Of a stretch of DNA of 64,000 nt, positions 40,288-43,300 are shown piece by piece; position 1 is the stretch's first letter; each line of letters begins with the position of its first letter. The position numbers and the translations under genes were made by a program. Source of the DNA: Sanderia malayensis (lineage: Eukaryota; Cnidaria; Scyphozoa; Semaeostomeae; Pelagiidae); the NCBI GenBank assembly GCA_013076295.1, contig RQOL01000532.1, forward strand, positions 1,178,001-1,242,000, read 5' to 3'. The notes below the pieces were generated by a model. That model ran no database searches. It saw nothing but the letters and a program-made list of their open reading frames with translations, and was not told where the DNA came from.

Positions 40288-40397
40288 ATGATTCCTGCTG
40301 GTTTTTACCGGGAAGAAGTGAATAGAACAGAATGGACAGTGCCAGAAAGATACCAAAATTTAGCATCCATTGGCATTGGAGCATATGGTCAAGTCTG
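40288..40397 (+). other. MAPK14: p38 alternative first coding exon 1a
   Basis: Encodes 36 residues and two bases of the next codon. It has [19 protein letters not shown], then the Gly loop IGIGAYGQV, and ends TG|GTAAGT, completing Cys with exon 2. The 37-residue product is closest to the start of vertebrate p38. A pyrimidine-rich stretch ending TTTTAG lies about 28 bases before the ATG and looks like a splice acceptor, so a noncoding exon may precede it. Confidence 0.85.
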
Positions 40398-43300
40398 GTA
40401 AGTATCTTCGTCGACAATAGCCAATTATTTTGCTTTTGAAATAATTGCTTATTTGTTGTTCTACTCATCTTTGCTCTTGAAAACACAGGGCAAATTTCAC
40501 TTGCTGCGAGTAATAACGAAGTCACGTCAGCTAGGCCCGAGCTACCGACTTTCTTTTTCAGTTTGTTTGTTTTGATTTGCTCATCAGATATCTAAATTTA
40601 GGTTATCAAGGAAACGTTCGAGGCTTCATAAAAGAACAATTATGTCTATTCAAGTATTTGCACAGTTGTGGGAAAATATCATTCAAAGTCTAAACTTTTA
40701 ATGTGAAAGTCTGAGAGGAAAAAATATTGCTTGGTCCTATATATGTCTTTTTTTGTTGCAACATTTACACTGTATCGTCTATATCCACGTGTTTTCAGTG
40801 CAAATCTCATTTCTGTAAATTAACTGAGAGAGAATAAGCAAAATGTTTGGCTACTTCATAGACTTTGTTTGATTAGAGTCGAGAGATGAAACAAATTTTG
40901 CCTTTTTCAAGTTTGGAAATACATGCTCGCAGGTGTGAACATGGTTGTGTATATATATGACGACCCTCCTTTGTCATTGTGTGTAGCATGCCATTCAAAT
41001 TGAAATTGAAATTGGTTATATTGAATGCGAAAAATATATTCCTCTCTCTTCCCAGAGGTAGAAGCGTGAATTTTTGAAGAATGTGAATTTTGAATTTGTC
41101 TCGCTGCCAACAACAGGGATACAGCTGTACTGTACTTGCAAAGTCGAACTTGCCCTTGCCCACTTCTCCATTGTCCCTTGCTGCCGCGAACCCCGGACCC
41201 GGAACCAGCCCCCCACTCCCTGCTAATCACTTGAAAAGGGGACATTTTCTATTCTGGCATTGCAATTACTTCCTTCATATTTGATCTGCAGTTTCTGTTT
41301 GATAAAGATCAATTCATAAGATTTATTTTCCGAGAATCAAGTGTTTCGAAACTTCAAGAGTCTTTTTAATTCACTGTACTGCCGTGTCACTTTCATTTTG
41401 GTTGGACCGAGTGGAATTGGCCTAAGGCCTATCTGACTTGCTACGCCCCATCAAATCGCTATAAATAATACGCAAAAGCACATTTCTTATACGATGGAAG
41501 TTGATGTCCCCGATGGATTTTATCGAGCCGAGATCCAGACAACGGAATGGACTGTTCCGTTCCGTTATGCTAATCTGAAAACAATTGGTGTAGGAGCATT
41601 TGGCCAAGTTAGGTAAGGTCGAATGTGTAGCTGCACTGCATCTCTTATTTTATTTCCGCCGGGTCGGTCAGCTTGGCGGTTTTCGAGTTTACTTTTAAAG
41701 GTCCATGCCCTAATAATAATAATATAATAATAATATTTGTTAGCTGAAATGTGTGGAGGACATGAAGAGCTCAATGCCCAAATCATGGAGCTATGGCTAT
41801 GGCAGCTTTCAGGTTGCCCATACTAGTTGCCATCACTGCCTACTCAGGCAGGCTGTTCCATTTTGTCACAACTTTGTTTGTAAGAAAGTCATATCTGTCC
41901 TTGCACTTTGTGTGCTTGTGAGTAATTCTCATTTTGTGGCCTCGAATTCCAGAAGCAGATCCACTTTTAGACAGTGATGATGCTAGTGCCTGATTATGTA
42001 CCAATTTTATTCTTTCAATACCATTGCATAATAACTTATAGTACTGAATCACATCTCCTCTACTGCGTCTTTCTGGCAATGATGACCACCCTTGTCTCTT
42101 TAATCTTTCCATGTAAGGTAAATGCCTCAATTTTGGAACCAACCTTGTGGCCCGATGCTGTACCTGCCCCAATCTGGCCACATCTCCCTTAAACTTTGGG
42201 ATCCAAACAGGTACTGCTAATTCAACCAGAGGTCGCACAAATTTTGTATAAAGCAGGTTTACCAGTTCACAATCAAAGTAGGAAAATATCCTCTTTAACA
42301 CACCCAACCTCTGATTTGCCTTCATTGCAGCTGCAATGTGCCACTTTATCACGCCATTTTAAGTCTGGTGTAAATATCACACCAAGGTCTTTCTCACATT
42401 CTATCAAAGCAAGTGTTCTGTTACTTCAAAATGACTTTTTGTGAATTCCAATTTCTTGTTGGACAATAACAGCTTCTATCTAGACTTACTCTGCAATAAT
42501 ATATACCTTTGTCAATCCAAATTCTTGTATAGCATATTGTTTCAATTTGGAATCAGTTCATTGCGACTATGGGGGCTAGCACCAACAATCATTTCTAAAT
42601 ATTAGGTGCAATAAATCTGATGCTTTCGGAAACAAACAAAATATGACAGTTGTCCTAATAATTTATACTGCGCATTGCTGGAAGTAACATTGTCTTTTCT
42701 TCTTGCAGTTCTGCAAATGATACCAAAACTGGTCAGATGATTGCTGTTAAAAAGTTATCGAGACCCTTCCAGTCTGTCATTCACGCCAAGCGAACTTACA
42801 GAGAATTGCAGATGTTGAAGTATCTGAAACATGAAAATGTGAGTTGTTTAACAGTTCTTTCAGCTGTTCATCTTTCTGGATGTTCACTCGCTTGTTTAGG
42901 ACCACTCGCATGGATGGATAACAATTTAAGCTTGTACTAGCAAGCGTGAAAAATGTTTCAGGCAACAAAAACATGCCATTCCAAACATCTCTCCATATTT
43001 TTCATAAGACAATGGGTATTACGTGTCATTTATTGTTACTCTTGAATTTATGCAAGAAACTACACAATTTTGACATGTTTTTGTTGTCATGTTTTGCTAT
43101 TAGGAGGGTATTGCTTTTTTATAAAAAATTGCTTATGTTCATACAAGTTTTCATTTTGCGTTTGGAATGGTTTTGTGTAGTCTTGGTCATGATTTAGTTA
43201 TTTGCCTTATATTCATTCACACCTTTCTTCCTTAATTTCCCAGTTGGGTTAGTTATCCTGGGATTTGCTGTAGTACAAGTATGAGCTTATTTATTAGTAG

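Follow-up and report, generated by a model that had tools for sequence, protein, structure and literature searches.

We identified in the scyphozoan jellyfish Sanderia malayensis a p38 MAP kinase gene in which 12 shared exons (42709-50672) follow a pair of homologous alternatives, 1a and 1b, for the first coding exon. The gene probably produces two full-length kinases from these mutually exclusive exons, with the choice between them most likely made by the site of transcription start. Either first exon would be spliced to the same exon 2. The two resulting kinases would share everything beyond the junction residue and would diverge in the hairpin at the N terminus, in strand beta-1 and at the tip of the Gly-rich loop. 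Transcripts initiated upstream would carry 1a and skip 1b, those initiated just 5' of 1b would carry 1b, and the promoter used would determine the place or time at which each form appears. The Tyr35/Phe35 difference and the neighbouring changes would then modulate how the kinase handles nucleotides or inhibitors, or how it autophosphorylates, and not how it docks. We infer both the transcription of 1a and 1b in Sanderia and a functional difference between the two forms. p38, a kinase central to stress signalling, has been studied extensively as a drug target, and its Gly-rich loop shapes inhibitor binding.

Gene architecture

The gene lies in a 64-kb stretch of DNA (hereafter, the window) that spans positions 1178001-1242000 of contig C479; the positions of its exons and of the candidate elements upstream of them are given in Table 1. 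Exons 1a and 1b are separated by 1096 bases. The donor of 1a has the form ...CTG|GTAAGT, with TG before the splice point, that of 1b reads ...AG|GTAAGG, and TTGCAG directly precedes the start of exon 2. Joined in frame to exon 2, the two exons give proteins of 354 (1a) and 357 (1b) amino acids with zero internal stops. The junction codon encodes Cys in the 1a form or Ser in the 1b form, and the proteins are identical beyond it. Exon joining confirmed the original prediction of two intact, homologous first exons with phase-2 GTAAG donors in frame with exon 2, and the observed exon pair is real. Each of the later exons (2 to 13) was matched once in the gene region, with no second duplicated exon.

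Table 1. Exons of the Sanderia malayensis p38 gene and candidate upstream elements (window positions).
Feature	Position	Strand	Description or basis
Acceptor-like site 5' of 1a, good, TTTCTTCGTATCCATTTTAG	40243..40262	+	Score 9.8, matched by 0.8% of window AGs; 12-site matrix
Exon 1a, first coding exon, a-type, GIGAYGQV	40288..40397	+	36 codons + 2 nt, ATG start, phase-2 end; identical to start of EukProt P0002
TATAAATA, possible promoter element, suggestive only	41460..41467	+	34 bases 5' of 1b ATG
Exon 1b, first coding exon, b-type, GVGAFGQV	41494..41612	+	39 codons + 2 nt, ATG start, phase-2 end; counterpart of Rhopilema X1 and Aurelia P0004 first exons by Phe35
Exon 2, shared	42709..42838	+	Exon joining
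Exon 3, shared	43901..43959	+	Exon joining
Exon 4, shared	45073..45184	+	Exon joining
Exon 5, shared	45581..45610	+	Exon joining
Exon 6, shared	45827..45874	+	Exon joining
Exon 7, shared, holds TGY activation motif	46532..46646	+	Exon joining and motif search
Exon 8, shared	47220..47291	+	Exon joining
Exon 9, shared	47751..47830	+	Exon joining
Exon 10, shared	47970..48048	+	Exon joining
Exon 11, shared	49132..49241	+	Exon joining
Exon 12, shared	49893..49956	+	Exon joining
Exon 13, shared, carries stop codon	50617..50672	+	Exon joining

The window also contains features outside the coding exons. Intron 1 holds a 170-codon frame on the minus strand (41840-42352) that had no Pfam match at E 0.001 and whose translation looks like the final part of a LINE-type reverse transcriptase. 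Introns 6 and 7 (46063-46320 and 46760-47030) contain CCTCGAATAAGCCCCC-like motifs and their reverse complement, seen by eye, and these stretches look like a palindromic transposon remnant. Two further frames are located on the plus strand: one of 350 codons (53317-54369) with C2H2 zinc fingers (Pfam zf-C2H2, E 8e-13), which we take to be KLF-like in appearance, and an intronless one of 647 codons (54813-56756) with PDE12-like N-terminal and Exo_endo_phos domains.

The presence of the TGY activation motif places the kinase in the p38 family. The DNA pattern for MTGYVAT, which a diverged or split motif would escape, occurred once in the whole genome (184,004,477 bases in 918 contigs). Further, the encoded protein is 67-71% identical to the p38 of coral, anemone, sponge, hemichordate, frog and spider (alignment A1). 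When the protein of the jellyfish Rhopilema (P0005), instead of the window protein, was used to query known structures, MAPK14 chains were the best matches (E 6.5e-165) and the best 60 listed were all MAPK14 or p38.

A second p38 gene was considered as the origin of exon 1b and was not found, the other strong kinase places that we examined having non-p38 activation motifs. From the 54 kinase places in the genome, those examined were an ERK5-like locus with TEY (L005), a JNK-like one with TPY (C675) and two ERK-like ones with TEY (C725 and C600), together with L006-L008 and L012, which were assessed by motif only. The first coding exons of the JNK-like (L017, C675) and ERK-like (L018, C725) genes end at the same place as that of p38, closing with Gly-Met-Val plus the first two bases of the following codon (GTC TG|GTAAG and GTT TG|GTAAG) before an exon 2 that begins C TC. 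The splice point is old: three MAP kinase branches share a phase-2 intron located after the Gly-rich loop, and a duplicated exon 1 would therefore have been immediately usable as an alternative.

Homology of exons 1a and 1b

Run against the whole window in six frames, an exon-1 profile built from 132 peptides, those of 1a and 1b among them, recovered 1a (E 3.9e-21) and 1b (E 2.3e-17), with the next match at 0.21 and no further exon-1 copies in the 64 kb. Searched against the 184-Mb genome, the 1a peptide alone also found 1b (E 1.3e-10); the third and last place (E 0.15) was the first exon of the JNK-like gene. The two exons share 22 of 32 gap-free residues, with 10 different, and 60 of the 96 bases of the corresponding codons, with 36 different. 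This is well short of the difference at about half of positions that had been claimed for them. Only the N-terminal tips (MIPA vs MEVDVPD) are unalike. Identity at codon positions 1, 2 and 3 was 23, 26 and 11 of 32, respectively, with a saturated pS of 0.83 and a pN of 0.235. The protein sequence of both exons is under constraint, as their frame and loop are intact despite the saturation of synonymous sites and an unconstrained copy should have lost both. When the flanks of 1a and 1b were compared to date the duplication, they had chance words only in common, besides a 700-base self-overlap of the compared stretches.

These comparisons also bear on whether the pair is an artefact of assembly or haplotype, with two alleles of one exon placed end to end. 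Haplotype duplication is a common assembly fault, but alleles would hardly be expected to have only 60 of 96 bases identical, saturated synonymous sites and flanks that match in chance words only, and the presence of both exon types in Rhopilema further argues against it. We consider an artefact of this sort extremely improbable.

Both exon types in related jellyfish

Protein searches, which covered the best 120 of 7978 in one search and 12 and 19 scored candidates in two others, identified five close proteins (P0002, P0003, P0005, P0004 and P0006). EukProt P0002 is 100% identical to the Sanderia a-form and is the sole gene model found for this species, representing the a-form only. Rhopilema esculentum, a member of the Rhizostomeae (Sanderia belongs to the Pelagiidae, in the Semaeostomeae, within the same class, Scyphozoa), has two annotated p38 isoforms, both predicted: X2 (P0003), which is a-type, and X1 (P0005), which is b-type. 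The last 321 residues of X1 and X2 are identical, their difference is confined to the first-exon stretch, and a contig of 8,633,203 bases is listed for both. Aurelia aurita P0004 is b-type, and the JGI protein P0006, which adjoins Rhopilema in the body tree (91), is a-type. Hence, the search for both exons in relatives found the two types together in Rhopilema, rather than the conservation of only one. The predicted use of two alternative first coding exons to make two N-lobe variants is supported, chiefly by Rhopilema X1/X2, and the same exon arrangement in a second jellyfish suggests, at the level of sequence, that the pair is used rather than accidental.

The six jellyfish peptides separate by type at p38-alpha residues 11, 15, 22, 29 and 35 (human numbering). 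These five fixed differences make the a/b division the best marked of the 10 possible 3+3 splits, the next having three. Residue 35, at the tip of the Gly-rich loop, is Tyr in a and Phe in b and is the sole column with one letter on each side. Residues 30, 33, 34, 36, 37 and 38 are identical in all six peptides, residue 31 is Gly except in P0006, which has Ala, and residue 32 is variable. Thus, the different ATP-site lips proposed for the two kinases are borne out at the sequence level at residue 35 (Tyr/Phe) but not at positions 30 and 38, which are the same in all six. The Cys/Ser difference at the junction holds in Sanderia but is no mark of type, because the b-types of Rhopilema and Aurelia have Cys.

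We also compared the peptides with 126 non-jellyfish rows, an uneven p38 sample drawn mostly from the best a-form matches, of which 124 have Tyr at residue 35 and two have Phe. Phe35 is ruled out as a mark unique to the b-type by P0124 and P0128, p38 proteins that also carry GAFGQV and that the body tree places in a clade of their own, apart from the jellyfish. Two residues almost invariant in the other rows, Glu19 (123/126) and Pro29 (121/126), are lost in all six jellyfish peptides, a and b.

Origin of the exon pair

With 32 columns, too few to settle orthology, the free exon-peptide tree paired Sanderia 1b with 1a (92/85, unstarred) and Rhopilema b with Aurelia b (99/95, starred); the equally limited 37-column tree returned the same two pairs (80/81 and 93/97, both unstarred). 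Rhopilema a groups with Sanderia a and P0006, and the Rhopilema pair therefore looks older than the split between Rhopilema and Sanderia. Trees constrained to keep the three b-peptides together were unrejected (p-AU 0.237 and 0.399), as was one with all six jellyfish peptides as a single group (p-AU 0.305, 32 columns). Constraining Rhopilema a and b as sisters gave a worse fit (p-AU 0.095 and 0.013).

Sanderia 1b is the most divergent of the six peptides, and this, like its position beside 1a and not beside Rhopilema b in the free tree, counts against the main reading of two alternatively used first exons. Scored against a non-jellyfish profile, it reached 50.9 bits, the lowest of the six (59.0-69.0 for the other five), and it has a long branch and has lost Asn14 (120/126 elsewhere) and Gln25 (109/126). 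Judged from its sequence, 1b may be the Rhopilema b exon's true counterpart, changing rapidly, or else a duplicate that arose independently or underwent conversion. Separate duplications in the Sanderia and Rhopilema lineages, or a conversion in Sanderia that made 1b resemble 1a, would account for the pairing of 1a and 1b in the free trees and for the 22 of 32 residues that 1b has in common with 1a, against 19 with Rhopilema b. Yet Phe35 and four other columns sort by type, the b clade is unrejected, and it is the sisterhood of Rhopilema a and b that fits worse. We regard a separate origin, which would concern only how the pair arose, as somewhat doubtful.

Alternatively, 1b could be a copy that in Sanderia is decaying or seldom used, though the pair would be functional in Rhopilema. 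The low profile score, the two lost residues, the long branch and a Sanderia gene model with 1a would all be in keeping with such decay. However, the frame, ATG, Gly-rich loop and donor of 1b have stayed intact after synonymous saturation, which makes a fading copy quite improbable.

Promoter or splicing choice

The acceptor-like site upstream of 1a ends 25 bases 5' of its ATG, and 1a may be a second exon, with an untranslated exon upstream. In the 194 bases 5' of the 1b ATG, the best acceptor score among nine AGs was 1.7, a value equalled by 15.5% of window AGs. The acceptor matrix gave scores of 1.8 and -7.6 to two of its 12 true sites when these were left out, so 1b could still have an acceptor 5' of it. 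The TATAAATA upstream of 1b is one of five exact copies listed for the plus strand of the 64 kb, and the broader TATAWAWR pattern has 26 occurrences on this strand, about 0.04 per 100 bases, a frequency that renders the element suggestive only. With this element as its TATA box, a 1b transcript would have a 5' UTR only a few bases long, which speaks against the promoter reading. A dispersed repeat (with …AATAAGCGCCCC… motifs), for which at least 83 places in the genome match, itself included, occupies 39665-40101 and ends about 190 bases 5' of the 1a ATG. With the repeat 5' of 1a and no common flank, 1a and 1b each have their own upstream DNA.

Both exons could instead be internal, with a shared upstream untranslated exon joined to 1a or 1b by a mutually exclusive splicing choice. 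The good acceptor 5' of 1a would suit such an arrangement, and internal mutually exclusive exons are reported for mammalian p38 and JNK (PMC1431701). Against it, the weak matrix detected no comparable acceptor 5' of 1b, where TATAAATA is found. A splicing choice is unlikely on this evidence, and we infer a promoter choice between 1a and 1b.

Possible effect on the kinase

AlphaFold2 models of isoforms X1 and X2 had mean pLDDT values of 80.0 and 83.2, with the activation loop and C-terminal tail poorly modelled. Both have the same exon-1 strands (8-13, 16-21, 24-33 and the start of 36-43 in the b-form). As modelled, exon 1 would thus contribute the hairpin at the N terminus, beta-1, the turn rich in Gly and the first part of beta-2. 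The models indicate only that both exons suit the predicted fold.

Residue 35 lies above the ATP site and is able to fold over inhibitors; a change in inhibitor or nucleotide handling, or in autophosphorylation, would therefore be the effect to expect, if any. The main docking surfaces should fall in the shared exons. MAP2K recognition in p38 and ERK2 complexes is reported to depend mainly on two contacts, that of the KIM with the CD site and that of alphaG with the MAPK insert; contact with the N-lobe was ephemeral in MEK1-ERK2 simulations, yet is also described as the last site and likely the one deciding specificity (PMC12871702). The original suggestion of altered upstream-kinase docking is therefore weak, the main contacts being elsewhere, and keeps some footing in the likely role of the N-lobe in specificity. 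Expression may also be the whole point of the exon choice, with the protein change nearly neutral.

Comparison with known kinase isoforms

Both Rhopilema isoforms are already in NCBI; among the papers listed by literature searches on the theme, no title or start of an abstract discusses them or describes the exon pair. Single-model records, such as those of the Sanderia a-form and the Aurelia b-form, may conceal an isoform. A natural pair of kinases whose only differences lie in the hairpin at the N terminus, beta-1 and the loop tip would offer a ready test of what that part of the N-lobe does, and the exon pair could link the control of p38 to life stage in animals with alternating polyp and medusa phases. 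More speculatively, scyphozoans may have kept a p38 N-lobe switch since before the Semaeostomeae-Rhizostomeae split, in which one gene with two promoters makes Tyr35 and Phe35 kinases that differ in nucleotide, inhibitor or autophosphorylation behaviour and in life-stage use. We hold this broader proposal only tentatively; were it true, a single gene would accomplish what in bilaterians falls to paralogues or to swaps of internal exons.

The exons exchanged in mammalian p38-alpha and JNK sit in the C-lobe. Mammalian p38-alpha (Mapk14, CSBP1/2) and JNK (Mapk9, Mapk10) are reported to swap, likewise, one piece of the catalytic domain (PMC1431701). These swaps are internal, whereas the jellyfish gene swaps the first coding exon with its Gly-rich loop and has no later exon duplicated. 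In Fyn, the stretch encoded by exon 7A or 7B reaches the Gly-rich loop. According to the account in PMC7352836, these two alternative exons (FynB/FynT) similarly alter the start of the kinase domain, a precedent that counters the earlier statement that no N-lobe swap of this kind was known. However, they are internal exons of a tyrosine kinase and also carry the SH2-kinase linker, whereas the jellyfish pair are first exons. Alternative first exons of the mouse type mostly encode unrelated N-terminal tails. As reported from a survey of mouse kinases, alternative first exons are common in this group, and mutually exclusive first exons, which give protein kinases such as Sgk their alternative starts, are the majority class of alternative start (PMC1431701). 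Unlike the mouse first-exon pairs, jellyfish 1a and 1b are homologous and enter the catalytic core. A further known counterpart is provided by Rhopilema X1/X2 (NCBI), with the same a/b first-exon pair on one shared body, though its b-type has Cys at the junction in place of the Ser of Sanderia 1b and differs from it at 13 of 32 core residues. The jellyfish pair thus combines known features, its alternative first exons being homologous to each other and reaching into the catalytic core.
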